From: a virus
DNA length: 27,860 nucleotides
IMG/VR virus record: IMGVR_UViG_3300024359_000030
Location: 1-27,860 of that record
Strand: one strand, 5' to 3'
Positions 1,292-27,860 of the stretch are shown piece by piece. How positions within the stretch are numbered: the first letter of the stretch is position 1; every line of letters begins with the position of its first letter. The notes under the pieces were generated by a model. That model was not told the origin of the DNA and did no database searches. It saw only the letters and a list, made by a program, of their open reading frames with translations. Both the position numbers and the translations under genes were made by a program.

Positions 1292-2809
1292 ATGATTAAT
1301 GTTAAAACTCTAGACGATGTGCCTGTGGGTGCTTTTTACAAGAATGGTATCGTGTTCAGTGAGATTATCGCAAAGAAGATTAACGAAGGTTACACTGGAA
1401 CAGGTCTAGGCAAGGTTGTCGTGACGAATGGAGGTGTCTGCGCTCCCGCCGTTGACCTTTATTCAGTATGGCCTACCGAAGACCAGTCAGATAGTTGTAG
1501 CCGCATCTACTCAGCGGAGTATGTTGACAACCTGTCGGACCCTGACATCACCGTGAGACGTGCTAAGGATTGTCCTCTGATCAATAACTCTAAGTACGGT
1601 TCACCTGCTGAGGTAGGCTTAGCCCTCCTTTCGTCCTCAGATTATTACTTCGATTCGGGTGAGACGCCTGTGCGAGGCTTCCTCCGTAGCCGTGAGGAGG
1701 TAGGTATCTCAGCTATCCGTTTTGCTATTGGTCTCCACAGACCTTGCAAAGAAGATGGTGGCAAGGTTTCTATCTACCGTGACGCTGTTGACTACAAACG
1801 TGACAGACGCACAACCCTTAAAGCTGGTCGTGCCTTCCGTCACATGTTCCCCTCCGCAGATGACAAGTCCATCGCATCATTGGCGGAGGCTTGGCTTGAA
1901 CAATCAGCTCCTCGTGACCTCACCTTTAAAGTAGGTCGCAGTGCTGAGGACTTCACACGTGCCTATGACCACGATACAGCTCCTTTCCGTAACCCAACTC
2001 AGACCTCTTTCCGTAAATCCATCGCCTCATCTTGTATGCAAGGTGTTGGCCGTGAGTATCGTGACGAGGTTGGCATCTGGGACTACGCCTCAGTAGGTGC
2101 AGCTTATGCCTCTGGTGACTTTGAGATTGCTTGGGTAGAAGACAAGGATGGCCACATAGCGGGTCGTGTAGTCTATTCGGTAGCTGAGGGTCACAAAAAC
2201 ACATCAGGGCCTCTCTATGGGGCTTGTGAGCAGTCTCTGGACATGTTACAAGACCACCTCACTGTAAATGGTATAGAGTATGATGTCGAGGCGTGGTCAG
2301 GTCTACGTCTGAAGTGTGTAGGGCCAAAAGATGATCCTGTTGTCCCTTATCTTGACGGTGACTTAGGTGGTAGTGTTACTTATGGTGGTGAGTTCATTGA
2401 GCTTTGCTACATCAGCGTTGGTGAGTTTACCTTCGACGGCACTGATGGTTTTGGCAGGAGGACTACGGGTACGTGTGAGTGTTGTGGTGGTGGTGGTTTC
2501 GAACACGAGGAACTGCATCGCTCCGACTACGGCCCTTATTGTGAGTATTGCTTTGATGAGGCATTCACCTATCTTGAGTGTGGGACTGTGGTGGATCGTG
2601 AAGAAGCTGTTGAAGCCTATATATTCCTCGACAACGAAGCTGGTGGCTGTACACTGCCACAAGTTATCCATATTGATGACGCTGTTTACTGTGAGGAGTA
2701 TGATGAGTATTGGCATCAGGACTACGTTACTATTGACGATGAAGGTGTTGAAAGACCTACACACCTCATCCCAGATCAACTTGAATTAGACTTGGAGGAA
2801 GCAGCGTAA
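1292..2809 (+). CDS. Large hypothetical phage protein with a C-terminal cysteine cluster, 505 aa
   Basis: I do not recognise the overall family. The long N-terminal part (about residues 1-390) is soluble and of mixed composition. A probable zinc-binding segment follows: C395-x-C397-C398, then C417-x-x-C420 and C430, within CECCGGGG...PYCEYCFDEA. The spacing is like a treble-clef or zinc-ribbon knuckle. The tail is strongly acidic (YCEEYDEYWHQDY; ELDLEEAA). The ATG at 1292 follows AAAAGGATTG. Its TAA overlaps the ATG of the next gene by one base (TAATG), so the two are probably translationally coupled. DNA or nucleoprotein binding is possible but only inferred from the cysteine cluster. Confidence 0.75.
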   Translation: MINVKTLDDVPVGAFYKNGIVFSEIIAKKINEGYTGTGLGKVVVTNGGVCAPAVDLYSVWPTEDQSDSCSRIYSAEYVDNLSDPDITVRRAKDCPLINNSKYGSPAEVGLALLSSSDYYFDSGETPVRGFLRSREEVGISAIRFAIGLHRPCKEDGGKVSIYRDAVDYKRDRRTTLKAGRAFRHMFPSADDKSIASLAEAWLEQSAPRDLTFKVGRSAEDFTRAYDHDTAPFRNPTQTSFRKSIASSCMQGVGREYRDEVGIWDYASVGAAYASGDFEIAWVEDKDGHIAGRVVYSVAEGHKNTSGPLYGACEQSLDMLQDHLTVNGIEYDVEAWSGLRLKCVGPKDDPVVPYLDGDLGGSVTYGGEFIELCYISVGEFTFDGTDGFGRRTTGTCECCGGGGFEHEELHRSDYGPYCEYCFDEAFTYLECGTVVDREEAVEAYIFLDNEAGGCTLPQVIHIDDAVYCEEYDEYWHQDYVTIDDEGVERPTHLIPDQLELDLEEAA

Positions 2810-3750
2810 TGACAGCCAGTAAGCAAAAGCTGGTAAGCATGTTGACCTATATGAGACCTGCTTACAGTATCACAGAGCAGATATTCTGTGAGAAGTACTT
2901 GTTGCCTATCTTCGGTGAACCCGATGAGCACGGCAACTATATCAAAGTGATAGGCGATAGACCTAACATCGCCTTCACAGCACACACCGACACTGTTCAC
3001 AAGATGGAGGGCATCCAGAAGCTATCTATCTCAAACGATGTCGTCACTACTATGACAGGCAGCTGCCTAGGTGCTGACTGCACCACAGGGGTCTGGTTGT
3101 TGCTAGGTATGATCGAAGCAGGTGTTGAGGGTGTCTACATAGCCCACGCAGCTGAAGAGATAGGTGGTGTCGGTAGCACTAACCTAGTCAAAGATTACCC
3201 TGCTTGGTTGATCGAGATTGATGCAGTCATCTCCTTTGACAGGTTTGATACGTGTAGCATCATCACACACCAAGGTGGTATGCGTACAGCTAGTGACGAC
3301 TTCGCTAAGTCACTGGCAGGTGCTCTTGAGCTCCCTCAGCTTAAACCTGACAGCTATGGTACATACACTGACTCAATGGAATACGCTGAGATCGTGTCAG
3401 AATGTACCAATATCAGTGTGGGTTACTACAACCAACACACAGCTAAGGAGTCACAGGATCTAGAGTACGCTGAGATGCTGCTTGAGAGGCTCATAGAGGC
3501 CGACTGGAGCGCATTGGTGTTCTCTCGTGACCCGACAGTAGTGGAGTACACTGGAGGCTCTGTAGGGCGCTATTCAGAGGGTGGTGAAGATGATGCAGAA
3601 GTTGCTAAGATATGGAAACTTCTACTTGACAGGCCAAGTGAAGTAGCTGAGTTGCTATACAGCTACGGTTTTACGATGGATGACATGTGCGATGAGCTTG
3701 ACTTAGACCTTATTGACAGATCGTTCTACACAGATGTCGCTACATACTAA
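2809..3750 (+). CDS. Zinc metallopeptidase-like protein (M20/M28/M42-type fold), 313 aa
   Basis: The sequence carries a full set of co-catalytic zinc peptidase motifs in the expected order: AHTDTVH (H59, D61), GADCTTG (bridging D90), HAAEEIGG (catalytic E116, ligand E117), an Asp-rich SFDRFD (144-147) and YNQHTAKE (H210). Families with these motifs include aminopeptidases, dipeptidases and deacylases of the M20/M28/M42 clans. There is no signal peptide, so it should act in the host cytoplasm. It is coupled to the upstream 505-residue gene by a TAATG overlap. Such enzymes are not part of the standard T7-like gene set. The substrate is unknown; a peptide or acylated amino acid is only a family-based guess. 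Confidence 0.75.
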   Translation: MTASKQKLVSMLTYMRPAYSITEQIFCEKYLLPIFGEPDEHGNYIKVIGDRPNIAFTAHTDTVHKMEGIQKLSISNDVVTTMTGSCLGADCTTGVWLLLGMIEAGVEGVYIAHAAEEIGGVGSTNLVKDYPAWLIEIDAVISFDRFDTCSIITHQGGMRTASDDFAKSLAGALELPQLKPDSYGTYTDSMEYAEIVSECTNISVGYYNQHTAKESQDLEYAEMLLERLIEADWSALVFSRDPTVVEYTGGSVGRYSEGGEDDAEVAKIWKLLLDRPSEVAELLYSYGFTMDDMCDELDLDLIDRSFYTDVATY

Positions 3751-4198: not shown

Positions 4199-4350
4199 AA
4201 GTTTATTATGTAACACCCTCCTACTTCCACCCTGACTCTGAGACATTAGTCTTCGTGTCGTCTACAGCCTTAACTCAATTCCTCAACTACTCCGAATATA
4301 AATGTGAGGTGACTACAAAAACCTTCAAACAAGGAGTGCCTACAACATGA
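4195..4350 (+). CDS. Small hypothetical protein, 51 aa, upstream of thyX
   Basis: The ORF starts MKVYYVTPSYFHPDSETLVF and overlaps the preceding ORF by four bases (ATGA). Its own TGA overlaps the thyX start codon in the same way. This double overlap fills the gap before thyX exactly and is strong evidence for translation. It has no recognisable domain, signal peptide or membrane segment. Confidence 0.55.
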   Translation: MKVYYVTPSYFHPDSETLVFVSSTALTQFLNYSEYKCEVTTKTFKQGVPTT

Positions 4351-4970
4351 TTAAAGCAACACTTATTGACCACATGGGCTCAGACCTTTCAGTAGTCAAC
4401 GCAGCACGAGTTAGCTTTGGTAAGAAAGCAGATAACTACACACCCGAGCAGAACAACAGGCTAATACTGTACCTTGCTAAACATAGACACATTAGCCCCT
4501 TCGGGCATTGCTTTGCCTCCTTCCACGTTAAGGCTCCAATCTTTGTAGCACGGCAGCTGGTCAAGCATAAGTTCCTCAGAATTAATGAGATTAGTCGTCG
4601 ATATGTAGATGATGAACCTGAGTTCTACACACCTGATGTGTGGCGTGGACGTAGTGCTGACAAGAAGCAAGGCAGTGAGGGTGAAGTTAACCCAGAGTAT
4701 AACCCACAATACCTAGACGGTAAGATAAAGTATGCTTACTTACAAGCGCTTCAAATGGGAGTAGCCCCTGAGCAAGCCCGTATGATTCTGCCACAGTCTA
4801 CACTAACTGAGTGGTACCACAGTGGAAGTCTAGACGCTTGGGCAGACTTATGTAATCTACGTTGTAAACCTGACACACAGTATGAGTCGCAGTTGGTTGC
4901 TAATCAGATCGACACCATCATGAGTGATCTATACCCTGTAGCGTGGAGGGCGCTCCGTGGTGAGTCCTGA
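4347..4970 (+). CDS. thyX: Flavin-dependent thymidylate synthase ThyX, 207 aa
   Basis: ThyX makes dTMP from dUMP with FAD, NADPH and methylene-tetrahydrofolate, supplying thymidine for phage DNA synthesis. Family features are clear: HISPFGH (residues 48-54), the signature region KHKFLRINEISRRY (73-86) and the C-terminal half with PEQARMILPQ and LCNLRC. Relative to the usual RHRxxSxNExSxRY signature, both flanking Arg are Lys (K73, K75) and the first Ser is Arg (R78). N80, E81, S83, R85 and Y86 are kept. Length is normal for the family. The start overlaps the previous ORF (ATGA), and the last 14 bases overlap the HNH gene downstream. Enzyme identity is secure; the effect of the altered signature is unknown. 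Confidence 0.93.
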   Translation: MIKATLIDHMGSDLSVVNAARVSFGKKADNYTPEQNNRLILYLAKHRHISPFGHCFASFHVKAPIFVARQLVKHKFLRINEISRRYVDDEPEFYTPDVWRGRSADKKQGSEGEVNPEYNPQYLDGKIKYAYLQALQMGVAPEQARMILPQSTLTEWYHSGSLDAWADLCNLRCKPDTQYESQLVANQIDTIMSDLYPVAWRALRGES

Positions 4971-5487
4971 TGTACTAAGTAACCTACTACGGTATGAACC
5001 TAAGACAGGTAAGCTATACTGGCTCAAAAGGGATCGTGACTATTTCCCAAGTGATTGGTCGCACAAAGTGTGGAACAAAAGGTACTCTGATGTGGAGGCC
5101 TTTACAACAAACACCAAGGGGTATTTATCAGGGAGAATCTTTGACAAGGGATACCTAGCCCACCGTGTCTGCTTCGCCCTCTTCCACGGCCACTGGCCTA
5201 AGGGTGGGGTTGACCATATTGATGGTGACCCAAGTAACAACACTATAGGGAACCTAAGAGACGTTACTTCATCTGAGAACAGTAGGAATACAAAACGTCA
5301 CTCACATAATACGTCAGGTGTGACAGGTGTGTACTTTGAGAGTTACACTGACCGATGGGTAGTTTCCGCAGAGAAGCATGGTAAACGACTCAAGAGGCGG
5401 TTTCTCAATAAGGATGACGCTGTATCATGGAGGAAGCAGTTAGACCATGAACTTGGGTTTCACGAAAACCACGGACGATATGAATAG
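4957..5487 (+). CDS. HNH endonuclease with C-terminal AP2-like DNA-binding domain, 176 aa
   Basis: The protein is a probable free-standing homing-type endonuclease. The HNH core is LAHRVCFALFHG (H69, R70), GGVDHIDGD (D86, H87) and NNTIGNLRD (94-102). An AP2/ERF-like domain follows: NTSGVTGVYF to GKRLKRRF, residues 118-149. The start is GTG at 4957, with GGAGG seven bases upstream inside thyX, so the gene overlaps thyX by 14 bases. It belongs to a set of four HNH-type genes in this window, each abutting a DNA or nucleotide gene. It probably spreads by cutting related phages that lack it; this is inferred from the family. Confidence 0.88.
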   Translation: MVSPDVLSNLLRYEPKTGKLYWLKRDRDYFPSDWSHKVWNKRYSDVEAFTTNTKGYLSGRIFDKGYLAHRVCFALFHGHWPKGGVDHIDGDPSNNTIGNLRDVTSSENSRNTKRHSHNTSGVTGVYFESYTDRWVVSAEKHGKRLKRRFLNKDDAVSWRKQLDHELGFHENHGRYE

Positions 5488-5512
5488 CTGCACTAATGGA
5501 AGGAGAAAAGCA

Positions 5513-5875
5513 ATGACTAATCGTAAATTTACACCGCCAACAGAGTTCCCCGCAGAGTATGTCGATGGGTTTGGGGGTAAGGTCACTATCTTGGGGCGTT
5601 CTTATTACAACAAAGAGAGACCTCTGGTAGGTTTTGATGACGAGGGCTGCGCCTGTAATTACGCAGAAAACGGGGCTTATTGGCCTGATGATGGGGGTAA
5701 ATACGACCTTCACGACATCCAAAAGCGCATCACAACGTGGCACAACGTCTACGAGGGTTGGGTCGGGGCTTCAAATAAAGTGAACCGTGGGGCTACAGAA
5801 AACCGCCTCTGCGTCTACCGCATTGAACGTAACGAGGATGGCAGCAACCCTAAGATATTCGTGGAGGAAGTTTGA
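5513..5875 (+). CDS. Hypothetical phage protein, 120 aa
   Basis: I chose the ATG at 5513 because GGAAGGAG lies ten bases upstream. The longer in-frame form from 5447 would overlap the HNH gene by 41 bases without a ribosome-binding site. The product starts MTNRKFTPPTEFPAEYVDGF and is soluble, Gly- and aromatic-rich, with a beta-rich look (GGKVTILGRSYYNKERPLVG). It resembles conserved hypothetical proteins of marine phages by memory only, and I cannot assign a function. Confidence 0.7.
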   Translation: MTNRKFTPPTEFPAEYVDGFGGKVTILGRSYYNKERPLVGFDDEGCACNYAENGAYWPDDGGKYDLHDIQKRITTWHNVYEGWVGASNKVNRGATENRLCVYRIERNEDGSNPKIFVEEV

Positions 5876-5934
5876 AGAAAATACTACTCACAACAACAGC
5901 ACTTCATCAACCGTGGAACGAAGGAGATTGGGAC

Positions 5935-6240
5935 ATGACTGACGGGAACACATACGCAATCAACAAACACCTCGACGATCTTGAGGACTGGGCCGCACTG
6001 CAAGAGGTCACGACAGAGCTTGAGCAGGCAGAGGCAAGTATCGAGGAACTGGAGGGTAAGCTATCTAAGAGCGAAGCTCTATTGGCGAAGGCGTTGGAGG
6101 CTTTGGGCGAAGCTGTCTACCTGCTTGATCCAGACGAGAAAGACATGGCACGGAAGGCAGGTGTGTATCGGGTCGTGACCACCCTCGCAGAACTAAGCAG
6201 CGTTAGCTGCGCTAACTCGAAAGGACAAGACGATGGGTGA
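5935..6240 (+). CDS. Coiled-coil hypothetical protein, 101 aa
   Basis: I prefer the ATG at 5935, which has AAGGAG eight bases upstream. A TTG at 5872 would add 21 residues and overlap the previous stop. Residues from about 27 to 65 form a heptad-like, Glu/Leu/Lys-rich helix (VTTELEQAEASIEELEGKLS, then KSEALLAKALEALGEA), so a coiled-coil oligomer is likely. The C-terminus overlaps the next gene by 8 bases. No known family is recognised. Confidence 0.65.
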   Translation: MTDGNTYAINKHLDDLEDWAALQEVTTELEQAEASIEELEGKLSKSEALLAKALEALGEAVYLLDPDEKDMARKAGVYRVVTTLAELSSVSCANSKGQDDG

Positions 6241-6421
6241 TGGCATTATTGGCAAAATACTGGACCGTTATGGGTTTTTGGGGGCGCTTGCACTTGCGCT
6301 TGCTTTGGTGGTTCTGGTTAATGTGTGGATTGTTGCTTCTGTGATTTACCCAGTCGCATTTTTAACACCTGTTTTAATAGCGATCTGGATGGTTTGGAGG
6401 GTGAGAGGAGAGAAGCGATGA
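6233..6421 (+). CDS. Small membrane protein with two predicted TM segments, 62 aa
   Basis: The N-terminus MGDGIIGKILDRYG is followed by two hydrophobic stretches, about residues 15-36 and 38-57, joined by a short turn (SVIYPV). It ends in a basic tail (RVRGEKR), placing the C-terminus in the cytoplasm by the positive-inside rule. Size and topology fit a holin-like or envelope-associated phage protein, but no adjacent lysis enzyme is visible, so holin is only one possibility. It overlaps its neighbours on both sides (8 bases upstream, 4 downstream). Confidence 0.65.
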   Translation: MGDGIIGKILDRYGFLGALALALALVVLVNVWIVASVIYPVAFLTPVLIAIWMVWRVRGEKR

Positions 6422-6582
6422 AGTTTACACACCAACACAGTGACGGCACAAAGATTAAAATAGAAATGGCAGAACATGCGTCTATGGATGCTGTACTTGA
6501 AGAGTTTCAAAACTTCCTTCGTGCTTGTGGATACGTAATTGAATACAATCAATGTTTAATTTTGGAGAATATGGATGAATGA
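6418..6582 (+). CDS. Hypothetical protein, 54 aa
   Basis: The ATG at 6418 overlaps the previous stop (ATGA) and follows GAGAGGAGAGAAG, a strong ribosome-binding region. This start is better than the upstream in-frame one at 6325, which lies inside the membrane-protein gene. The product (MKFTHQHSDGTKIKIEMAEH...) has a beta hairpin-like start and a helix (MDAVLEEFQNFLRACGY). Function is unknown. Confidence 0.6.
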   Translation: MKFTHQHSDGTKIKIEMAEHASMDAVLEEFQNFLRACGYVIEYNQCLILENMDE

Positions 6583-6862
6583 CTACCAACTAACACGAGA
6601 CGCAGCAGGTAATATTACAACACGTTATGATAAGATGCTACGTGACCTAAGGGATGACTATGAAGATGAGCTGGTTGTTGGGTCACTTATAAAATACTAC
6701 AACCTATGCTCAGTACTCGTTAAGGACGAGGGTGGTATGGATATGGGTGTAGATGAAGACCTACTGCGGGCTATTGAACGTATCTTGCAGGGCTACATGA
6801 GTACCTTTGCTGAATTCAACGCATGGATGTCAACGAGAGGAAAGCAAGATGAAAGTCAATGA
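6575..6862 (+). CDS. Hypothetical protein, 95 aa
   Basis: The protein is soluble, acidic and mostly helical (TTRYDKMLRDLRDDYEDEL; EDLLRAIERILQGYMSTF). The start follows TTTGGAGAATATG and overlaps the end of the preceding gene by 8 bases. It is one of a chain of overlapping small genes between thyX and the terminator at 7585. No family is recognised. Confidence 0.65.
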   Translation: MNDYQLTRDAAGNITTRYDKMLRDLRDDYEDELVVGSLIKYYNLCSVLVKDEGGMDMGVDEDLLRAIERILQGYMSTFAEFNAWMSTRGKQDESQ

Positions 6863-7085
6863 CATACTAAAGAACGTACTAGAAACAAACGCAGCCTTAG
6901 AGTTTACAAACGAGATTGTCTTGGCTATTCTGAAAAGCTCCCGTGATATATGTACTGAGCTACGTAAAGAATTAGACTTCAAAGTTGGTACAGGAAATGC
7001 TACGGAAGCTCAAATGAAAGACTGGGAAAGCCTTGTACAAGACATAGCAGCACTTAACCGTGTGATCGACTATTATGGAGGGTGA
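6849..7085 (+). CDS. Hypothetical helical protein, 78 aa
   Basis: I chose the ATG at 6849 because GAGAGGAAAG precedes it. The in-frame start at 6807 lies deep in the previous gene. The product (MKVNDILKNVLETNAALEFT...) is predominantly helical and soluble, without motifs I know. It overlaps the previous gene by 14 bases and the next gene closely follows. Confidence 0.62.
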   Translation: MKVNDILKNVLETNAALEFTNEIVLAILKSSRDICTELRKELDFKVGTGNATEAQMKDWESLVQDIAALNRVIDYYGG

Positions 7086-7086
7086 T

Positions 7087-7365
7087 ATGAATGAGCTTTG
7101 CCCCTCATGTAGAGAGCCGCTAAATTGTACATCAGGAGATGGTTGTGCGGCCATGACTAAGCATACCTTTAATAAGGAAGACCCTTTGTTAAACCTTACG
7201 CTTGACACTGACGAGCTAGGTATCTGGCTAATCACAGAGGAAGCAGGGGAGACACAACAACTAGGCCATATCTCTTGGAGAGAAATTACTCGTGGTGTGC
7301 AACAAGCTTTGCTACAAGAGAACTTCTTGATTGCACTAGCTGAAATGGATAAGGACTTAATATGA
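7087..7365 (+). CDS. Small protein with an N-terminal zinc-ribbon-like knuckle, 92 aa
   Basis: The start at 7087 follows TATGGAGGGTGAT. An ATG at 7075 would overlap the previous gene and place the ribosome-binding sequence inside the coding region. The N-terminus contains CPSCREPLNC and a further Cys (GDGCAAM), a possible metal-binding knuckle. The rest is acidic and ordinary. The stop overlaps the next start (ATGA at 7362). Function is unknown. Confidence 0.6.
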   Translation: MNELCPSCREPLNCTSGDGCAAMTKHTFNKEDPLLNLTLDTDELGIWLITEEAGETQQLGHISWREITRGVQQALLQENFLIALAEMDKDLI

Positions 7366-7580
7366 CTAACAAAGTAGGACACATGAAAGTGACAAACCTA
7401 ACTGAACATGAAGACGGTGGTGCTACCATAGAGTTTGATATGGATGACACCACAGCAGCATTAGCACAAGAGCTAGGCCTGAGGATGGCCACTTTAAGGA
7501 AGCTCATGATCTACTGTGGTGCTACAGGGACTGACGTAGATTACGTCTTTGATGCAATACTAGGTAGGTTAGATACTTAG
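7362..7580 (+). CDS. Hypothetical protein, 72 aa
   Basis: The product is acidic with a beta segment (GGATIEFDMDDTTAALAQEL) and a helical C-terminal part. It overlaps the previous gene by four bases (ATGA). An internal Met (MKVTN, residue 8) is an alternative start. It is the last gene of this transcription unit, ending four bases before a strong hairpin terminator. No family is recognised. Confidence 0.62.
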   Translation: MTNKVGHMKVTNLTEHEDGGATIEFDMDDTTAALAQELGLRMATLRKLMIYCGATGTDVDYVFDAILGRLDT

Positions 7581-7584
7581 AACG

Positions 7585-7618
7585 AAAGGGGGGCTTTACA
7601 CTGGCTCCCTTTTTCTTT
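7585..7618 (+). terminator. Rho-independent terminator closing the thyX-to-7580 unit
   Basis: AAAGGGGG (7585-7592) pairs with CTCCCTTT (7605-7612, one G-T pair) around a 12-base loop, followed by a T-rich tract. The stem loop contains the -35 element of the next promoter, so the end of one unit and the start of the next share sequence. Confidence 0.7.
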
Positions 7619-7623
7619 ATAAT
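7595..7623 (+). promoter_or_regulatory. Sigma70-type promoter for the replication unit, overlapping the terminator
   Basis: TTTACA (7595-7600) and TATAAT (7618-7623) are spaced by 17 bp. The -35 lies in the loop of the terminator hairpin and the -10 in its T-rich tail. The promoter would drive the gene at 7650 and the primase-helicase. Confidence 0.6.
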
Positions 7624-7649
7624 AACACATTGTAGACAAGGAGAGTACT

Positions 7650-7847
7650 ATGACGGATGAAAACAAACTGACCAGATGGGCTATCCTAGTTTACTCAGGT
7701 AAGTTCTGGCACTACGTTGTCAAGGGTAATAAACTGAGCCTTCACCACCTACCGAAGACATTCCTCAACAAGGAAGAAGCAAATAAGGTGGCTGCTAAGT
7801 TTGAAGGTGCGTACTACATCAAAGGTCAGGAGGCCAGAGAGCTATGA
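7650..7847 (+). CDS. Hypothetical protein, 65 aa
   Basis: This small basic protein (MTDENKLTRWAILVYSGKFW...) is rich in aromatic residues and Lys. It has a good ribosome-binding site (AAGGAGAG). It is the first gene after the promoter at 7595 and overlaps the primase-helicase start (ATGA at 7844). Its position suggests a replication accessory role, but nothing in the sequence shows one. Confidence 0.65.
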   Translation: MTDENKLTRWAILVYSGKFWHYVVKGNKLSLHHLPKTFLNKEEANKVAAKFEGAYYIKGQEAREL

Positions 7848-9436
7848 GCAACACAACCCATGTACCGTGTCCATACGAGGATTGCGGCTCCTCTGACGCT
7901 TTCAGCTGGGAGGATAACGAGCAGGTAGGTAAGTGCCACTCCTGTGACAGGTCGTACCCGATGGCGGGTATGGGCAGTATGTCCATCTTCGACTGGGCAC
8001 CAACAGACTACCCACTTAAGGAAAGGAAACCACCAGTGACACAAAGAGAGATTGCATCGGGTACCTTCGGGGGTGTCCGTGGTATTGACCCAGACGTATG
8101 TGAGTTATATGGTATTCAACTTCAACTAGATGCGGCTGGTGAGCCAGTACGGTACGCTTTCAAGTGGCCTAACAACGTAAAGTACCGTGGGTACGACGAG
8201 AAGAAGTTCTGGTTGAAGAGTAAAGGAAGCCTAGACGATTTGTTTGGCCCTGAGTTCAACAAGGGTAGTTCGAACAGACTGTATATCACAGAAGGTGAGT
8301 TCGACGCTGCAAGCCTGTACCAAGTACTAGGTAAGTCATTCCCTGTTAAGTCTCTTCCGTCAGCTACCATGTCTGACCGCTTCATTAAGAAGAACTTCGA
8401 GTACATGAACAGCTTCAAGGAGATAATCTACGCTGGTGAACAGGACGCACCAGGGAAGGCAGCAGCTGAGCGTCTATACGAGTTGTTCCCTGAGAAGTTC
8501 TACTTTGTACCTATGTCTAAACATAAGGATGCCAACGAGTTCCTTATGGCGGGTGACGGTAGTGATCTCATGTGGTCAGCCAAGAAGCCACAGCGCTTCA
8601 GCCCTGACAACTTCTACCTAGGTGATCTTGACATCGAAGAGACCATCAAGAGAGAGAACCCTTACAGCTATGTAGCTACAGGCCACAGCGGTCTTGATGA
8701 TAAGATCAGGGGGCTAGTCAAAGGAGGTATTACTTTTGTTAAGGCACCTCGTGGTGGTGGTAAGACAGAGATGGTACGTTTCTTTGAGTGCGGTCTCCTT
8801 AAGTCAGACCCTGACGTAAAGGTGGCTATGATGCACATGGAGGAGATGCGTTCCACCACCTACCGTGCGATGGCTACATACGAGCTAGGGATCAATGTGC
8901 GTACTAAGGAGGACGCAGCGGCTAACGGTGTCAGTGAAGATGCTGTAATCGGTGCCGCACAACGTATCGCTGATGATCGTACTGTTGTCTTCGAGCTTCG
9001 CTCACATGACGATCCCATGAAGATCCTTGACTATGTACGGATGGCTGCTACGGTCTACGGTGTTGACTATGTGTTCATTGACCACGTACAGCGGCTGGCT
9101 TACCTTTCTCAAGGGGGGGCTGATGGGGCTACGTCACTCCTGACAGCTGTCGGCTCTCGTATGGCCCAGCTAGCTAAGGAGCTGGACATCGGGGTTATCT
9201 TCATCTCTCAAGTGAACGAAGATGGTCGTACCAAGTACGCAGGTTCTCTTGAAGAAGAGGCTATCATTTGTATCAAGCTAGAGCGTGACGTCGAGAGCGA
9301 GGATGAGGATGAGCGCAACACTACCACCTTTGTTGTAGACAAGAACAGACCTTTCAGTAGACTTGGGAAGGCAGGTAGTATATACTACGATCCAGACACA
9401 ACAATACTAGCAGAAGGGGAAGGCTTCGATGTATAA
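7844..9436 (+). CDS. T7 gp4-like DNA primase-helicase, 530 aa
   Basis: This bifunctional protein makes RNA primers and unwinds DNA at the phage fork. The N-terminal zinc finger is C9-x4-C14...C31-x2-C34. A TOPRIM primase domain follows (YITEGEFDAASLYQVLG; IIYAGEQDAPGKAAAERLYE; HKDANEFLMAG). The DnaB/RecA-type helicase has Walker A APRGGGKTE (K307), Walker B DYVFIDHVQR (D413) and the downstream ISQVNEDG motif. Length (530) is slightly below the 566 of T7 gp4. The C-terminus ends in a short acidic tail with an aromatic residue (AEGEGFDV), as in helicases that contact their polymerase. It overlaps genes on both sides and precedes the polymerase. Confidence 0.95.
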   Translation: MSNTTHVPCPYEDCGSSDAFSWEDNEQVGKCHSCDRSYPMAGMGSMSIFDWAPTDYPLKERKPPVTQREIASGTFGGVRGIDPDVCELYGIQLQLDAAGEPVRYAFKWPNNVKYRGYDEKKFWLKSKGSLDDLFGPEFNKGSSNRLYITEGEFDAASLYQVLGKSFPVKSLPSATMSDRFIKKNFEYMNSFKEIIYAGEQDAPGKAAAERLYELFPEKFYFVPMSKHKDANEFLMAGDGSDLMWSAKKPQRFSPDNFYLGDLDIEETIKRENPYSYVATGHSGLDDKIRGLVKGGITFVKAPRGGGKTEMVRFFECGLLKSDPDVKVAMMHMEEMRSTTYRAMATYELGINVRTKEDAAANGVSEDAVIGAAQRIADDRTVVFELRSHDDPMKILDYVRMAATVYGVDYVFIDHVQRLAYLSQGGADGATSLLTAVGSRMAQLAKELDIGVIFISQVNEDGRTKYAGSLEEEAIICIKLERDVESEDEDERNTTTFVVDKNRPFSRLGKAGSIYYDPDTTILAEGEGFDV

Positions 9437-9686
9437 TTACATGTATGACGACGATGACTATGAGTTCGATGGTTCGGGTTGTCTCGACGGAGAAGATGAC
9501 TACTTCGGTGAGATGGACGATGAGTTTGGTGAGTTTGACCCGATGAATGAAGACGTTGTACGTGAGCTCAACAAACAGATGCTTCAGACAGAAGTTGAGC
9601 TTGCAGAAGCTATAGCACAAGGTGACCTTCATCGAGCAGAGAGACTCCAAGATGAGATTGAACTGTTCCTGATGATGGACCACTAG
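9429..9686 (+). CDS. Strongly acidic small protein between helicase and polymerase, 85 aa
   Basis: About 18 of the first 42 residues are Asp or Glu, alternating with Tyr and Phe (MYDDDDYEFDGSG, EMDDEFGEFD). The second half is a helix with mixed charge (ELNKQMLQTEVELAEA, RAERLQDEIELFLMM). It overlaps the helicase stop by 8 bases. The charge pattern could mimic DNA or bind a basic surface such as the polymerase, but this is inference. No family is recognised. Confidence 0.65.
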   Translation: MYNYMYDDDDYEFDGSGCLDGEDDYFGEMDDEFGEFDPMNEDVVRELNKQMLQTEVELAEAIAQGDLHRAERLQDEIELFLMMDH

Positions 9687-9698
9687 AGAGGAGAAAGT

Positions 9699-11660
9699 AT
9701 GCCAAGGATCGCGTTCTGTGATATTGAGACTAACGCTGTTGACCACCCCGATAGGATTTGGCTGGTAGGTGGTAAGATGGCGGACACAGGTGAGGTCTTC
9801 CGTTTTGAAAACATCCACGAGGACGAGGTTGCACGCAGGGCTGCTACTGAGTGGCATCATTCACTAGACAAGATGGTTGGCCATAATTTCATCCAGTATG
9901 ACCTCCCTATCCTCAACAAGTGGTTAGACAAACCCCTAGACCCCCGAAAGGTGTTAGACACATTGATAGTCTCACGTACTGTAGACTACGACATACTGAC
10001 TCCACAAGGAGGCAAAGGCCCACACTCATTGAAGAGCTGGGGTATCCGACTAGGTGTTCACAAAGGAGACTACACTGACTTCGCTAACTTCAACCAAGAC
10101 ATGATCGACTACTGGGAAGGAGACCTAGATACTACAGAAGCTTTGTTCAACCACTTCAGCGATGTAATCTACGACAAGGACTGGTCCCGTTCACTGAGAG
10201 CAGAACATGACCTACAGATCGAACTAGTCCGCACTAAGTACCACGGCTTCCACTTTAATGAGGAGCTTGCACGTCACCTACTCGACAAAGTAACAGAGGA
10301 GATGGATAAACTAGGGGATCAGTTTCAAATAGACTTCCCACCTAAGCTACTCCAAGTGAACAGTATCAAATACAGGGAGAAGCAAGACGGTACACTGTAC
10401 TCCAACGTCCTACAAGCCAAGGAGAAGTACGACTTGACTAACAGAGTCGGGGATGAGCTCCAGTGTTTCAACTTCATACCGTTCAATCCTGGGTCATCTC
10501 GTGTACGTGCTGATGCACTGTGGGATGCTGGTTGGAAACCTTTCGATAAGACAGCTACCCATATCAAGTTCCTCCGCCTAAAGGTCGGTGACCCTTACGG
10601 TAAGAAGGTTGCCAAGATGGATAAGAAGTTCTACGACGAGAAGAAGGCTGACCTAGAGCGGTACGGGTACACGGTGTCAGAAGAGAACCTACTGACACTC
10701 CCTGAGGACGCCCCTGAGGGTGCTAAGGGCCTCGCCCAGTGGCTTACCCTAGAAGGACGTAGGAGCTCACTGTCTGAGTGGCTAGGGCAGGTCTGTAACG
10801 ATGGGAGGATACACGGTACTATCAACAACATCGGGGCTTGGACAGGGCGTTGTGCTCATAACAACCCTAACACAGCTAACATCTCTTCAGTCTTTCATGG
10901 AGATGCTAAAACACCAGTCGAAGAAGTCAAGAAGAAATACGATGGATTCTTACGGCAGTGTTGGGGTACACCTGATGGTTCGTATCTTGTAGGTTGTGAC
11001 GCAGACGGTATCCAACTTAGGGTTCTTGCTGATTACCTATGGCGACACTTTGACGCTGACCAGTATGCACTAGCTATTATGGAGGGCAATAAAGAGGATG
11101 AAACAGACATTCATAATGTTAACAAACGTGCATTAGGTGTCGAGAGTGCCACAAGGGATGACGCAAAGACTTTCATCTACAGTTGGCTCCTTGGAGCAGG
11201 GGTAGCTAAAACTGCCTCGATACTAGGTGTTAATCAAAGAGAGGCTCAAGCTGCTCGTACTCGTTTTGAACAGGGTATTGATGGGTTGGCCCCTTTAAAG
11301 AGACGACTTATCCCTTACATTGGTGAACAGGGGTATTTCACAGGGTACGATGGCCGTAAGGTTAAAGTACCTAGCGAGTATAAAGTACTAGCGGGTCTTC
11401 TTCAATCAGGGGAGAGTGTGTTGATGAAACATACCCTCATTAACTTCCACAAGAAAGCTAGGGCAGAAGGTATCAACTTCAAGATGACGGCTTTTGTTCA
11501 TGATGAATATCAGGTGGAAGTTATAGGCACTGAGGAAGAGGCACACCACATGGGTAAGCTCATAGCCACTACTATGACGCAGACTGGTGAAGAACTTGGT
11601 TTTAGAATACCAACTCCAGGTTCTTATGACTTAGGGAGGACTTGGTATGATACTCACTAA
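9699..11660 (+). CDS. Family A DNA polymerase with 3'-5' exonuclease domain (T7 gp5-like), 653 aa
   Basis: This is the replicative polymerase. The exonuclease domain shows the DEDD motifs: FCDIETNAV near the N-terminus, VGHNFIQYDLPIL, and a third motif around YWEGDLDTTEAL. The polymerase domain has motif A VGCDADGIQLRVLADY, motif B RDDAKTFIYSWLLGAG (R486, K490) and motif C FVHDEYQVEV. In motif B, the position equal to E. coli F762 is Tyr (Y494), as in T7. The position equal to E. coli Y766 is Leu (L498), which is unusual. It is somewhat shorter than T7 gp5 (704). The start follows GAGAGGAGAAAGT, and the last 14 bases overlap an endonuclease gene. Confidence 0.96.
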   Translation: MPRIAFCDIETNAVDHPDRIWLVGGKMADTGEVFRFENIHEDEVARRAATEWHHSLDKMVGHNFIQYDLPILNKWLDKPLDPRKVLDTLIVSRTVDYDILTPQGGKGPHSLKSWGIRLGVHKGDYTDFANFNQDMIDYWEGDLDTTEALFNHFSDVIYDKDWSRSLRAEHDLQIELVRTKYHGFHFNEELARHLLDKVTEEMDKLGDQFQIDFPPKLLQVNSIKYREKQDGTLYSNVLQAKEKYDLTNRVGDELQCFNFIPFNPGSSRVRADALWDAGWKPFDKTATHIKFLRLKVGDPYGKKVAKMDKKFYDEKKADLERYGYTVSEENLLTLPEDAPEGAKGLAQWLTLEGRRSSLSEWLGQVCNDGRIHGTINNIGAWTGRCAHNNPNTANISSVFHGDAKTPVEEVKKKYDGFLRQCWGTPDGSYLVGCDADGIQLRVLADYLWRHFDADQYALAIMEGNKEDETDIHNVNKRALGVESATRDDAKTFIYSWLLGAGVAKTASILGVNQREAQAARTRFEQGIDGLAPLKRRLIPYIGEQGYFTGYDGRKVKVPSEYKVLAGLLQSGESVLMKHTLINFHKKARAEGINFKMTAFVHDEYQVEVIGTEEEAHHMGKLIATTMTQTGEELGFRIPTPGSYDLGRTWYDTH

Positions 11661-20046: not shown

Positions 20047-20486
20047 TGTTAGTCATTCAAACAGTATACGTAGTACTCGTTACACTTGTTGTGTTCCTTA
20101 TGTTCTACTCCAAGTTAGGTAGGTTCTTTAAGGCATCAGCCCTTACACTTTCTATCTTACTTGGGGCTGTTACGCAGACACACTACGTTAAACAACTAGG
20201 TAGTCCCATCGAGGGCTACCCATCCTACGAGTTCCTGTACATTCACCATATAGCTACAGGTAAGTTTATCAAGGTATGGGTCTGGGATAAAGAACGAGGT
20301 GATCGTCTCTACGTTATCCCCTACAACCAGGATGATGCTGAAAAGCTAGAACAAGCTAAGCAGAGGACTGAGCAAGGGTCTCCTCAGGGTGGCTCCTTTG
20401 ACCAAGAACAAGGAGATAGGGAACGAGCCGAAGGACTACGTATAGACGACTGGCAGAACCCTGACATCTCAGAAAGGAAGAGTTGA
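20046..20486 (+). CDS. Small membrane protein of the envelope cassette, 146 aa
   Basis: Two N-terminal hydrophobic segments (about residues 3-21 and 28-45) are followed by a soluble domain (YEFLYIHHIATGKFIKVWVW, YVIPYNQDDAEKLEQAKQRT). The tail is a flexible Gln/Glu/Gly-rich stretch ending in ISERKS. I do not recognise the family. It starts on the last base of the ExbD-like gene and its stop overlaps the SbmA-like start, so it is translationally tied to both. Confidence 0.65.
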   Translation: MLVIQTVYVVLVTLVVFLMFYSKLGRFFKASALTLSILLGAVTQTHYVKQLGSPIEGYPSYEFLYIHHIATGKFIKVWVWDKERGDRLYVIPYNQDDAEKLEQAKQRTEQGSPQGGSFDQEQGDRERAEGLRIDDWQNPDISERKS

Positions 20487-21457
20487 TGTGGGTTTTTTAC
20501 ACAAGCAAGAAGTGGGCCCTCTGGGCCTACCTCGGCACCTTCTTTATACTAGGTACCCTATGGTTACAGGTACAAGTAGACGTACAGATTAACCACTGGT
20601 TCGGTGACTTCTACGACCTGATCCAGAAGGCACTTGCCACCCCAGGGTCTGTGACTATAGGTGAGTACTGGGCAGGGCTTGCATCTTTTGGTTGGTTGGC
20701 TGGTACCTGGGTTGCCCTCAGTCTTGTTGGTTCCTTTGTCACCGCTCACTTCCTCTTCCGCTGGAGAGCGTCAATGGTCGAGTGGTACCACGAGGTCTTC
20801 GATAAAGGGCGTACCATTGAGGGTGCTTCACAACGTGTCCAAGAAGACACGATCAAGTACACGAGGATCGTAGAAGGTCTAGGTGTTTCACTAATAGAGA
20901 GCGTAATGATTCTCGTCGAGTTCTTCCCACTACTACTGGGTCTTGGCGCAGGGTTGTCTATCCTCTGGTTTGGAGATTGGAAATATGGATTGGTTACAGG
21001 AGCTTTCGTCTGGACATTGGGCGGTACTTTGCTACTTGTTGTTAGTGGTTATATCTTACGGCTGGTTGGCATTGAATACGACATCCAGAAGAAAGAAGCA
21101 GCGTATCGTAAACACCTTGTCAAGATGGAAGACGACGGTACTGTCTCTCCTAAGGCGTTAACTGAGCTATTCGAGGATGTACGTACAATACACTTCACTA
21201 GTTATCTTCAGTACCTTAAGTTTAACGTGGTGCGTATGGCCTATCTACAAGTTAATGTCCTGACTGCTTATATCTTCTTAGCTCCTGCTATTGTAGGTGG
21301 TCTTATTTCACTAGGTTTGATGCAGCAAATCATCCGTGCCTTTGGTAGAGTAGAGGGTTCTATGCAGTTCTTGATTAAGTCTTGGCCCACTATCATAGAG
21401 CTCATCTCAGTGTACAAACGACTACGTGAGTATGAGGCACAGATCAAGTCATCTTGA
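20486..21457 (+). CDS. SbmA/BacA-like peptide transporter, 323 aa
   Basis: SbmA and BacA are inner-membrane, proton-driven importers of peptides such as microcins and antimicrobial peptides. Family signatures are clear: INHWFGDFYDLIQKAL (near residue 36), FRWRASMVEWYHEVF, and IEGASQRVQEDTIKYTRIVE followed by GLGVSLIES. About six to seven TM segments are visible. There is no nucleotide-binding domain, as expected. It is shorter than E. coli SbmA (406), mainly at the C-terminus. ATG at 20486 overlaps the preceding TGA. A phage-borne copy could change peptide uptake or phage sensitivity, or work with the ExbB/ExbD-like pair. Function in the phage is inferred. Confidence 0.85.
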   Translation: MWVFYTSKKWALWAYLGTFFILGTLWLQVQVDVQINHWFGDFYDLIQKALATPGSVTIGEYWAGLASFGWLAGTWVALSLVGSFVTAHFLFRWRASMVEWYHEVFDKGRTIEGASQRVQEDTIKYTRIVEGLGVSLIESVMILVEFFPLLLGLGAGLSILWFGDWKYGLVTGAFVWTLGGTLLLVVSGYILRLVGIEYDIQKKEAAYRKHLVKMEDDGTVSPKALTELFEDVRTIHFTSYLQYLKFNVVRMAYLQVNVLTAYIFLAPAIVGGLISLGLMQQIIRAFGRVEGSMQFLIKSWPTIIELISVYKRLREYEAQIKSS

Positions 21458-22670: not shown

Positions 22671-25600
22671 CTAGTCGTACGTAGCTGCAGGGGCTTCCAT
22701 ACGCTTGATGAAGTCAGCTGTTTCTAGCTGTGATCTAACGATACTAACCTGTGCTAGGTTCAAGGCACCTAGGTCATCCCCTAGCTCCAGTTCCGTAAGA
22801 GCTTCCTTAACAGCTTCAACGCTATGCTTACTCATTATGTCGTACTGGGCACCCAGTGTGTCCTGAGGGCCGTTATAACGGGCAACAAGCATGAACATAG
22901 CTTCTTTACGCACCTTCTTCACCTGATCCTCGTAGTGCATCTTCTGTACGTCTCCAGGGGCTTTAAGGAACGCCTCGTTGTTCATCTTAGCCGCAGCCCA
23001 GTCTTCCATAGCGAGGTAGACCTGACGCTGGTACTCATTGACAGCCTCAGGTATCATACCCTTCTTGTCTTTTGAGAGACCAGAGTTAAGACCCCATTGG
23101 TCAACTCCTACAACATTCATAACACGTTGGAGGTTGGTGAGCATTGGTGTACGAGCGCCACCGAAGGCAGCAGTACTCATCTGGTCCATCTCACCTGTAG
23201 CAGAGCTTACCTTAGGTGGATCACTCTTACCAAGGAGGAAGCTAGTTGTAGTGTCGATATAACGGAGGGAGTTACCTACAAACTTATTACCCTGTGCTAC
23301 GTCCTTAGGGCGTTGATTAGCACCTGTTGCAAGACCAATAGCTGTGTCTATAGGTTGATACGGACGTAAGAAACCACTGAGAGCCTGTGCTGTAATGTCA
23401 GAGGCAATAGTGATGCCTTCTACACCTGCCTGCTTAAGCTCACCTGCAAGGAGGGCGGCTCCGAAGTCAGCAAACTCAGCTGTAGTCTTGTTGAGGTTAC
23501 GTGTAAGACCACCGCCACCGAAGTCTTTACCGATCTGTGTGATGATCTCAGCTGGTACGTCCTCCCCTGCCATGTTGTAAGCGGCTACACGTGATGCAGC
23601 CTTGAACAAGGAGATAGGGTAGTCGTACTGTTGCGATATTACAACACCATCTACCAGCTCATCGTACAGACCCAAGCCATTACGGCGGTTCTCGTCCTCA
23701 TCCTGAGCCATTCCGTATACAAGACCAGCTGCAACAGCCCCACGTGCATTAAGCTCAAGGAAGGACTTATCTGCGTACTTACCGGTCTTCTTAGCTGCGA
23801 TGTTAAGAAGAGGTGTATGTTTGATACCGAAATCAATAGTGTTGTTGAAGAACTTACCGAATGGAATCATGAAGCCAAGGCCAGGGATGTTACGTGCATC
23901 CTCAATCATACCAGCCACTTGACCAAGTTTACTGTTGTCTTTGTATGACTTAGAGAAGATGTTCTCTTGGGTTCGCATAACGGCATCAAGCTCAAGCTGC
24001 TTATACTCCTTCGTCGCCATGATCTTTATAGCGTTGGGATCGGAGTAGAACTCATCCCATTCTTTACCAAACTTAGTACGAAGCATCTTGTTCATCTGGC
24101 TTACGTACTCTTGTGACTTAGTAAAACTATCCTGTGCGTGTACGAATGTAGCGTGTTGAACACCATTGATCCATGTATCAAGGTTACCTTGTACTCTACC
24201 AGCCTTACCACCCATACGGCTCATAGCGTCTACTGACTGTACTACGTCAATACCACCAGCCAAGGTACGGTCAAGGGTGTCCAGACCACCTGTGCTCCGA
24301 AGCAATGCGCTCTTGAACGCAGCATGGGTCATATCAGGGTCCATAGCAAACTTAACACGGTCCTTAACAGACAGAAGCAGCTGCTTAGCTACAAACAGCT
24401 CACTCTTACCGCTGTCAGCACCTTTTAGGACAGACTTAAGAATACCGACATTACCTTTGTACAGAGCCATTGTGATATCTGTAGCAGCGTCTATAGCGGC
24501 AGCACCGCTGTAACCAACAAGGTTGAGCATAGACGTGGAGGGGTGTGACACTAGGCTTCTGATGAACTTGTTCTGTGACTCAGTTACGTTAGCAAGGAAT
24601 GCACCTTTACCTTTGAACCGCTCTGCTTGCGGCACGATGTCAGCAATAAGGTTATGCCCAAGGGCTTCTTCCATGAAGTCATTCAGGTTGAGGTCCTTAA
24701 GGTTTGTATCAAGCCGTTTAGCCACCTGACCCACACTGTTCATCATGCGAGCACTCTCGTTCATACGGTTAGCGAAAGCATCGGAGAAGGCTTCAACTGT
24801 CATCTGACCCTTAGGTATACCTACCGTACCCACAAGGCTGTCGATGGCGTCCTGGTCTAGCTCCTCACGCATGAAGTCTGATATCCAGTTAGACATTGTG
24901 TCATCGTCTGTACGTTTGACGTAGAAGTAACCACCTTCGTGCATGATCTCAGCAAGACCACGTAGACGAGGAGCCTCCTCAGCGCCTTCCTCAGCTGTCT
25001 CCTTACCAGTACGGCCAAGGAGGAGGTCAATAAAGAAGTCAGTATCCTCTGGTGTGATCTGCTCACCGTTCTTAACCTTTGTAAGCCAGGCTACTTCGCC
25101 TTCAGGGGCCTGGTCAGCCCACTCCCGCAGTGACTTCTCTAGGTCAGCTGCAATCTTCTTGGGGTCAGCCTTCTGGACTGTCTCAGATACAAGGGCTGTA
25201 TTTGTGAAGCCACGTTTAGCTACAACACCAGCTTGGATGCCACCCATAGCCATGGCTGATAGAGCGGCAATACCGACAGCACCTTTGCTTATCTCGTCCT
25301 GTACACCTGTCTCAAGTAGACTACGTTGGTAGAGGAACTCAGTACCTGCGTTAGCAACGGCATCAACAGCTGTGGTAGCTGCAATCTCCTTGAGACCAGC
25401 CTTTGTCAGAACACGTTGGATACCTTTGTTAGCTGCCATCTTAGCAGAGAACTCAGCTACCTCTTGAGCACCTTCTACAGCTGCTGCAGCACCAGCCTTC
25501 TTAAGGACTGATGTACCTGCCTTCTTAGCTACTTCACGGCTAGCTCCTTTTATAAGCTGCTTAGCTACTTCTTTCTGTGCGATAGTCTGAGCAGTCTTAG

Positions 25601-26369: not shown

Positions 26370-27838
26370 TAACGTGACCTTCCTGTGTTACGGCGAGCTC
26401 TTGCGTCTAGTTCATCATCAGGTGTTCTGAGTACACGTCCTCTGCGATTATCCCAGTCCATAGCCTCTTCTGTTTGCTCGACTTCGGGACGTGAGTAATC
26501 CTTAGGACCGTCGGCTTTGTAAGTAACACGTGCAATAACATTCTCTACAACACCCTTAAGGACCTCAGGTGGGATTTGGATCTCAAGATCAGAGATAAGA
26601 ACATTAAGGTCTTCCTTAAAGTAAGCCAACTCCTGCACGTTTGTTGGTTCGTAGACACCAAGGTCGAAGAGCTCCTCTTCAACAGCAACAACCTTCTCCT
26701 CAAGTGCTTCCCCTTCGAGAGCACCTTCGATACCACTTTCGATCTCTTCGATAGTCTGCGGCTCACGAATAGGACGGTTGTCAGGGATAACTGTCTTAGG
26801 CTGTGCGCCTTCAGTCATAACTTCTTCGAACAGAGCATCAAGCTCAGGTACTGGTTTAAGAGATGTATCTACATTGCTTACACTGAATCCACTCTCGTCT
26901 ACACCACCAGCAGCTCCTTGCTCAGGTGCTACAGAACCTTGGGTAAGACCTTCAGGACCCTCTGCTGGTGCCTCTATTATTAAGATTTCATCACCTACCT
27001 TAGCCCGTCCTGTGAAACCATCCTTAATGGCGTCCGACAACTCCTGAGGAGTTGCGAAGGAGGTAGACGACCCCCTCGATGCGCTAGGAGCTGTAACTAC
27101 AGGTGCTGTACCTGTACCTCCACCAGGGGGTGTAACCACAGCTTCCTCAGAGGTGTAGGAACTACCAATAACAGAGTTATCCAGAAGGTTATGTTTCTCA
27201 GCAGCAGCTTTACCGAACCCAAGCTTAGCCAACTTAGAAAGACCTTGAACACGAGTAGCTTTCTGCCCCAACATAGCAAGGGCTTGCTGGGTTTCTTCTC
27301 GGAGACCATCCGGTAGACCACTAAGGCTCCTAACCGCTTCTGTCTCAGTAGCTGCTTCCCAGAAACTCATCTGCTTATCAAGGTCCTCCAAGTTAGTAGG
27401 GGTTCCTGTTTGTTGGAAGAGGTGTTTAGTAGGTTTGTAGTTCTTAAAAGCAACCAGACCTTTAGCAAAGCTTTTAGGGTCTGTGATACCTTCACCTGTA
27501 GTAAGCATCTCCAAAGCCTTTTGAGCTTCAGCTTCCCCTTGACCTTCGATAGTACCTGCGTACTTAAAGTACTTGGGGAGGTCTCCTAGAGTAACAGTGT
27601 TACCCTTTTGAGCCTGCGCTGTTATAAAAGCCATCATGGAGGCTTGTGTACCTGCGTCACCTTTAAGCATCTTAAAGAACTCAGAGTCCTTCTGCTCTTC
27701 ACTGAGGTTTTGGTACTCGTTGTGGTACATAGTTGCACCTTCAGTGATAGCTTCTGCTGACATCACCGTTGAACCACCTTTAGAACCACCTTTAGATGGG
27801 GTACCCCCTCCTAGTGATGATGCAAGACCAGGTGGCAT
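26369..27838 (-). CDS. Structural-type protein, Gly/Glu/Ala-rich, 489 aa
   Basis: I do not recognise the family. The N-terminus is Gly/Ser-rich (MPPGLASSLGGGTPSKGG), then helical up to about residue 230. The middle is low-complexity Ala/Pro/Gly (VVTPPGGGTGTAPVVTAPSA). An acidic helical part follows (EEIESGIEGALEGEALEEKV), and the C-terminus is Arg-rich (RTPDDELDARARRNTGRSR). Placement directly upstream of the large virion protein suggests another internal or assembly protein. I prefer the ATG at 27838. The frame stays open to the window edge, with TTG at 27850, so a longer N-terminus is possible. An overlapping frame shows TGATAG, probably the end of the preceding gene. Confidence 0.6.
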   Translation of the reverse strand: MPPGLASSLGGGTPSKGGSKGGSTVMSAEAITEGATMYHNEYQNLSEEQKDSEFFKMLKGDAGTQASMMAFITAQAQKGNTVTLGDLPKYFKYAGTIEGQGEAEAQKALEMLTTGEGITDPKSFAKGLVAFKNYKPTKHLFQQTGTPTNLEDLDKQMSFWEAATETEAVRSLSGLPDGLREETQQALAMLGQKATRVQGLSKLAKLGFGKAAAEKHNLLDNSVIGSSYTSEEAVVTPPGGGTGTAPVVTAPSASRGSSTSFATPQELSDAIKDGFTGRAKVGDEILIIEAPAEGPEGLTQGSVAPEQGAAGGVDESGFSVSNVDTSLKPVPELDALFEEVMTEGAQPKTVIPDNRPIREPQTIEEIESGIEGALEGEALEEKVVAVEEELFDLGVYEPTNVQELAYFKEDLNVLISDLEIQIPPEVLKGVVENVIARVTYKADGPKDYSRPEVEQTEEAMDWDNRRGRVLRTPDDELDARARRNTGRSR

Positions 27839-27860
27839 AATCTCTATCAAGGCAAGCTGA

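Follow-up and report, generated by a model that had tools for sequence, protein, structure and literature searches.

Two adjacent genes of a virus record (IMG/VR IMGVR_UViG_3300024359_000030, a stretch of 27,860 bases that was analysed whole and is called the window below) may form a single functional unit. The second gene encodes a 313-residue zinc exopeptidase-like enzyme, the first a 505-residue protein, here named the SCM protein. Open reading frames (ORFs), overlaps and motifs were read from the letters of the window. We tentatively propose, as a quite possible reading that stops short of being probable, that the two genes encode one early exopeptidase machine, in which a conserved enzyme would work with a partner that presents the substrate, replaces a missing lid and docks through the tail of the enzyme. 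The proposal is built on sequence comparison and structure prediction, which provide the predicted fold of the enzyme, its intact residues, the missing lid, the coupling of the genes and the conservation of the partner.

Comparison of related loci strongly supports the coupling of the peptidase to the 505-residue protein, well beyond the hint that had been seen in an original prediction made from the window alone. The stop codon of the partner and the ATG of the peptidase have one base in common (TAATG). Viral loci anchored on the peptidase (L008-L095) are the best 80 of 593 plus 8 from an earlier scan, with a few contigs present twice, and those anchored on the partner are the best 80 of 155; both sets therefore represent the nearest kin. 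In the first set the partner lies directly upstream of 75 of the 90 peptidase ORFs, that is 75 of the 82 for which upstream DNA exists. Eight of the other 15 have under 300 bases upstream and seven have no adjacent partner, five of the latter having a partner elsewhere in the locus; upstream DNA amounts to merely 641 and 336 bases in L073 and L075. Reciprocally, the peptidase adjoins 78 of 84 partner ORFs (78 of the 81 with downstream DNA); three of the remaining six have no downstream DNA and three are separated, two of these being pieces in one locus. When pairs were sought within -250 to +700 bases, the spacing was -116 to +55 in 89 of 91 dereplicated pairs, and in L187 the gene order is reversed with the genes still overlapping. 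The partner is also held by 11 of the 19 peptidase loci on contigs filed as bacterial genomes, which may be prophage or contaminating phage. L078 and L190 each carry two diverged pairs, those of L190 (a Mesorhizobium contig) standing within 7 kb at positions 4637-11383. The mirror-tree correlation of partner and peptidase reaches a Spearman coefficient of 0.94; a common ancestry would produce this value as well, and it is not taken as proof.

The 313-residue protein itself is, on profile and model evidence, a well-supported candidate for a dizinc exopeptidase-type enzyme of the M20/M28/M42 fold class, with predicted metal binding and hydrolysis. Its ORF was recovered exactly as first called, at the same coordinates and with the same ATG start. 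In a profile search residues 3-243 matched PHROG_4191 'peptidase' with an E-value of 9.6e-74; the match to Pfam Peptidase_M28 (PF04389) was below the curated cut-off (17.5 vs 21.3 bits), a cut-off passed by one huge-phage homolog (23.9). The AlphaFold2 model, made from a 53-sequence alignment (A4), has a mean predicted local distance difference test score (pLDDT) of 90.9. Its top structural match with VIA is a staphylococcal tripeptidase (Z 23.8, root-mean-square deviation 2.6, 228 residues), 595 of 1000 chains reach Z >= 8, and PepT, TET/M42 peptidases and DapE are further neighbours, found by Foldseek too. These matches support the zinc-aminopeptidase-like fold that had been proposed; the enzyme would probably act in the aminopeptidase direction rather than as a carboxypeptidase or deacylase. 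A profile search of the PDB aligned H59/D61, D90, E116/E117 and H210 with PepT 3gb0 (E 0.0013) and D144 with the bacterial aminopeptidases 6esl and 6ica (E 0.04-0.06). All seven metal or catalytic residues (H59, D61, D90, E116, E117, D144 and H210, in the order H-D-D-EE-D-H) are invariant across A4 and present in 214 of the 214 ORFs that are complete there, out of 223 profile hits. The nine hits left out are short or gapped at the residue positions, the frame of L079 and L180 being broken into pieces, and the 214 are redundant, 78 being left after dereplication at 80%. Intactness of the residues was thus correctly predicted, and of the two alternatives given for one ligand, D144 or D147, the first is conserved and position 147 is usually Gly. 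The lid/dimerisation domain of M20 and M42 enzymes is absent: the 228 model residues align across the 373-residue tripeptidase, and no extra domain occurs within residues 1-240. Since DapE without its dimerisation domain is inactive, according to the accessible part of PMC4012986, a lidless peptidase may need a helper.

The partner is conserved in its own right. The SCM proteins of the window, Pasto, BDU-MI-1, PP90 and VKV295 have a common S-C-M...R...YG...PYxD core, at 19-24% overall identity to that of the window. In an alignment of 39 sequences (A3), 38 of which were picked by the SCM motif, K242, S247, C248, Y272, R292, Y309, D355, G377 and G386 are invariant. In 65 dereplicated profile hits chosen without the motif, Y272 is kept in 64 and R292, Y309 and D355 in all 65. 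The cysteine cluster noted earlier in this protein is present as C395/C398/C417/C420, each nearly invariant in the same unfiltered set; its matches are weak (a LIM chain at E 0.034; Pfam LIM in 5 of the 39 members, best E 0.014), and no Pfam family fits the partner among the 39 members searched, LIM being the commonest weak match. PHROG_13313 and PHROG_6980 are each matched by three of the five members of alignment A2 at E <= 0.1, the window protein matching PHROG_13313 only (E 0.0014). The structure model of the partner has a pLDDT of 85.7 and contains a predicted GNAT-like middle domain (Table 1). As a side observation, weak matches in BFVD include a phage 'Amidoligase enzyme' and a PcfJ-like protein (rows 29 and 34), and the pattern HC-I ... 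Y ... G of one PcfJ protein resembles the SCM core by eye. A C-terminal '..AA', considered as a shared degron or tag, occurs in the first five partners and is missing from most viral-contig relatives, and was rejected.

The distribution among sequenced phages was then considered. Homologs of the peptidase were found in 373 INPHARED records by tblastn with the window peptidase and in 384 with the VKV295 homolog. By host name they comprise Klebsiella (230-231 records), Pectobacterium (51), Vibrio (42), Escherichia (10), Thermus (10) and others, and the records opened from Klebsiella, Pectobacterium and Vibrio hosts (KP34, VKV295, PP90, PhiM1, MGD1) are Autographiviridae. Partner records mirror these numbers, with 231 against 230-231 for Klebsiella, 42/42 for Vibrio, 51/51 for Pectobacterium, 10/10 for Escherichia, 4/4 for Shigella and 3/3 for Dickeya, counts which were made by host name rather than record by record and which for the partner combine two queries. 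KP34 gp10 and PhiM1 gp09 directly precede the peptidase gene and both have the SCM motif; in the KP34-like as in the Phimunavirus phages, the primase gene comes after the pair. In the accessible text of PMC4411677, KP34p10 (hypothetical) and KP34p11 (putative peptidase) count among the conserved 'Kp34likevirus' genes; in that of PMC6115819, PhiM1_09 and PhiM1_10 are among the conserved Phimunavirus proteins and the region holding them is termed early. These records and lists run counter to two statements of the original prediction, that such an enzyme is not part of the T7-like set and that it lies in an accessory region. Hundreds of other phages carry the same gene pair, which suggests a core tool made of two parts and not a stray addition; by analogy with its position in related phages the pair would be expressed early. 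Neither a function for the pair nor its naming as a unit was found in the literature searched, mostly open papers, PMC8006926 and PMC7824862 among them.

Within the pair the enzyme is constant and the partner evolves faster. The ratio of non-synonymous to synonymous substitution rates (dN/dS) was taken between the window and L009, whose peptidase is 97% identical: the peptidase gives 0.058, the partner of the same two contigs 0.316. Only this comparison was used, because those with L019 and L020 are saturated or undefined at silent sites. Where a contig has two pairs, comparing one pair with the other gives normalised scores of 0.36-0.45 for the peptidases, against 0.09-0.13 for the partners.

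In the mechanism we propose, the 313-residue enzyme, reduced to a catalytic domain plus a helical tail, would trim substrates, and the SCM protein would be its dedicated partner, the zinc cluster and the GNAT-like domain binding particular substrates, in the first place N-termini of proteins, or peptides, from host or phage. The SCM protein would present these to the enzyme and replace the missing lid, a role made plausible by the inactivity of lid-stripped DapE (accessible part of PMC4012986). The two proteins would then form a physical complex, for which the C-terminal tail of the enzyme is the likely docking site. To compare tails, 78 dereplicated enzymes were considered, 66 of which either share their locus with an SCM protein or are preceded by 1.5 kb or more of DNA, and a tail was called long with 85 residues or more after H210. 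Of the long-tailed enzymes, 54 share the locus with an SCM protein and 7 do not; for the short-tailed ones the numbers are 0 and 5 (Fisher p 9e-5). The short-tailed peptidases L203, L205, L202 and L195-L197 come from contigs titled Bacterium HR15, Fimbriimonadales, Flavobacterium, Leptospiraceae, Methylococcaceae and Crenothrix, with no SCM protein in the stretch fetched, and are possibly a stand-alone type. A Rad23 XPC-binding-like match of the tail (E 0.17-0.62) was too weak and was not used.

Several observations weigh against this proposal. The association of tail and partner reduces to about 4 tail-state changes (a minimum) on the tree, and the tree-corrected independent-pairs test cannot reach significance; for both reasons the association is suggestive only. 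M28 aminopeptidases work without a lid and act alone, hence a partner is not strictly required. The near-invariant polar residues of the SCM protein look more like an active site than like the surface of an adaptor. Phage groups of Thermus, Bacillus, Cellulophaga and Brevibacillus match the peptidase and are not named among the partner matches obtained with insensitive queries, and two partner profiles run over the whole records found no partner in Thermus P23-45 and Brevibacillus SecTim467. Finally, the presence of both families in two huge phages speaks for the proposal, but the link is looser there. LR745206.1 (634 kb; L102-L105) encodes the peptidase five times and SCM proteins at least twice, and one of the five peptidase copies has an SCM protein beside it. 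LR756504.1 (636 kb; L207, L266, L269-L275, L295-L297) encodes the peptidase eight times and SCM proteins at least three times, and the three SCM proteins found stand away from all eight copies. Three of these eight copies are long frames (fusions) of about 700 residues or more; one of them is fused to a zinc region of the DnaJ-like CxxCxGxG type (PF00684 at E 3.9e-6, under the cut-off of that family), which counts in favour of the proposal. A five-member partner profile found none of the SCM proteins of LR756504, which surfaced only with the 39-member profile; a miss with one partner profile is therefore weak evidence.

The main rival makes the partner an enzyme: a GNAT-like SCM protein would attach an acyl or aminoacyl group to a target, and the exopeptidase would remove or trim the bond so made or prepare the acceptor N-terminus. 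Nearly all of the 50 VIA rows shown for the middle domain are annotated acetyltransferases, and the others (A-PGS, Elp3, TofI, 'bacterial toxin') we take to be GNAT-like; their Z values of 5.3-6.8 are under the guide of 8 given by the tool and can reflect a common arrangement. The Foldseek rows, with a best E-value of 0.0087, include FemX and L-PGS, enzymes which use aminoacyl-tRNA. The near-invariant Cys, Arg, Tyr and Asp of the 65 dereplicated partners would suit a catalytic site. The acetyl-CoA loop of GNATs reads Q/RxxGxG/A, and no canonical loop was seen by eye in ten members, in which the strand-helix turn is mostly xxYG or xxYx. Profiles of GNAT, FemAB and Leu-Phe transferases gave probabilities under 1%, in a test that has no power because the Fem-GNAT and Aat-GNAT positive controls failed likewise; in the fold searches too, absence of a family was not counted against that family. 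A precedent is found in the accessible part of PMC7552054, where the GNAT Rac of phiKMV-like phages gets a host protein cut. On balance we regard a transferase coupled to its trimming enzyme as rather unlikely. Its boldest form, in which the SCM protein founds a new phage transferase family (GNAT-like fold, invariant Cys, no canonical acetyl-CoA loop) that puts an amino acid or acyl group on host proteins, with the peptidase as its editing enzyme, is improbable; if true, hundreds of phages would carry among their early genes a compact write-and-trim system for protein N-termini.

Equally doubtful is a role in counter-defence, by which the pair would inactivate a peptide-like or amino-acid-conjugated immune signal or trim a defence protein. 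The faster evolution of the partner, the spread of the pair over unrelated phages and its place before the primase, in a region termed early in the accessible part of PMC6115819, would agree with such a role. Conservation of the pair across whole groups, according to the same text and that of PMC4411677, argues otherwise, anti-defence genes being usually variable. PADLOC models gave no convincing match for either protein (a weak HEAT_CxxC at E 0.048), from a library that holds defence rather than anti-defence proteins.

Alternatively, the peptidase could be a cytosolic enzyme that frees amino acids from host peptides to feed phage protein synthesis, the upstream gene being merely a neighbour. 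Its fold neighbours PepT and M42 are tri- and aminopeptidases, and the window also encodes an SbmA/BacA-like protein, of a family that imports peptides. We give this explanation little credit: a mere neighbour would hardly account for the frequent adjacency to one partner over distant phages and bacterial contigs, and the peptidase is present on 1 of 15 SbmA-bearing contigs, most of them fragments, a count which also leaves a shared peptide uptake by SbmA and the pair unsupported. A protein that has kept the exopeptidase fold for binding or a structural role and no longer cuts, as the lidless state and the inactivity of DapE without its lid (accessible part of PMC4012986) might suggest, is very improbable given seven residues kept in all 214 complete relatives and the low dN/dS of the enzyme.

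Table 1. Features of the SCM-peptidase gene pair in the window (positions from the first base of the window)
Feature	Start	End	Strand	Basis
Partner ORF (SCM protein), 505 residues	1292	2809	+	ORF call
GNAT-like predicted fold, partner residues 207-334	1910	2293	+	VIA Z 5.3-6.8; Foldseek E >= 0.0087
S247-C248-M249 motif of partner	2030	2038	+	S 65, C 65, M 63 of 65 unfiltered dereplicated hits
Predicted LIM-like zinc cluster of partner, C395/C398...C417/C420	2474	2551	+	C 62, 59, 60, 60 of 65
GGAGGAA, ribosome-site-like, within 3' end of partner gene	2794	2800	+	read from sequence
Peptidase ORF, 313 residues, ATG start	2809	3750	+	ORF call; lidless dizinc exopeptidase-type, PHROG_4191
Catalytic domain of peptidase, residues 1-240, PepT/M42-like predicted fold	2809	3528	+	VIA alignments stop at residues 234-241
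H59-x-D61, metal ligand and catalytic Asp by homology	2983	2991	+	invariant in A4; aligns with HMD of PepT 3gb0
D90, bridging metal ligand by homology	3076	3078	+	invariant in A4; aligns with LGAD of 3gb0
E116-E117, catalytic Glu and metal ligand by homology	3154	3159	+	invariant in A4; PDB profile alignment
D144, metal ligand by homology	3238	3240	+	invariant in A4; aligns with fD of 6esl/6ica
H210, last metal ligand by homology	3436	3438	+	invariant in A4; aligns with VGYEEIHT of 3gb0
C-terminal tail of peptidase, residues 241-313, four predicted helices after a low-confidence stretch	3529	3747	+	AlphaFold2 model

The rest of the window was considered for context. Its replication genes are of the T7 type (primase/helicase, polymerase, Gp2.5-like protein, endonuclease), and it additionally encodes a thymidylate synthase, a ribonucleotide reductase large subunit and a head protease; no RNA polymerase was seen among the window proteins searched, a set that covers part of the window ORFs. 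The thymidylate synthase, presumably of the ThyX type, is followed directly downstream by an overlapping HNH endonuclease (4347-5487, plus strand). The SbmA/BacA-like protein (20486-21457, plus strand) lies between small ORFs and the head protease and matches PF05992 with an E-value of 3.5e-124 over profile positions 2-315 of 315. It is matched by 17 viral-contig loci, some on nearly identical relatives of the window and others on contigs 102 and 243 kb long, and by 4 INPHARED records, for which a phage origin is as filed only; its dN/dS vs L282 is 0.048. No title on a phage SbmA appeared among the literature matches listed. On the minus strand, 22671-27860 contains two long ORFs (1232 residues, and an open one of 496) that match no PHROG and, at E <= 0.01, no Pfam family.

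Compared with known systems, the enzyme adds a new member to a family already known. The PHROG_4191 peptidases of Drulisvirus (KP34), Phimunavirus, Maculvirus and Rhizobium phage Pasto belong to the same family and are about 35-42% identical to that of the window by tblastn; in the phages opened the peptidase follows an SCM protein as in the window, and the same residues are found in the five aligned. In the rows seen, these homologs are annotated 'peptidase', 'zinc peptidase', 'aminopeptidase' or similar, or hypothetical. Peptidase T and the tripeptidases (M20B) and the TET M42 aminopeptidases resemble the window enzyme in catalytic-domain fold and ligand order, whereas the latter has no lid/dimerisation domain and has an extra helical C-terminal tail. 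It also differs from PepT and M42 at the bridging Asp, where all 53 A4 members read LGADC; Pasto and PP90 keep LGADD. The lidless single catalytic domain is like that of M28 aminopeptidases, to which the Pfam match is weak. SCM partners match PHROG_13313 / PHROG_6980, families listed without a known function, and the literature searched, mainly open papers, yielded no account of the two genes as a conserved unit whose partner family lacks a functional name. Nor does what was seen of that literature give a purpose for the peptidase, which KP34-like Klebsiella phages and others, hundreds of phage genomes together, encode. Recognising the peptidase as one half of a conserved pair, with a partner that has near-invariant polar residues and a predicted zinc cluster, makes a single testable unit of two conserved early genes so far anonymous. 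A functional parallel may be Rac of phiKMV-like phages, a GNAT leading to cleavage of the host RNA polymerase alpha subunit; in the accessible part of PMC7552054 the proteases are not identified. Rac and the SCM protein would both be GNAT-type proteins of related phages tied to proteolysis. According to the same text Rac is encoded downstream of the phage RNA polymerase gene, is predicted to have an acetyl-CoA pocket and is suggested to act with a protease of the host, whereas the SCM partner stands before the primase in KP34 and PhiM1.

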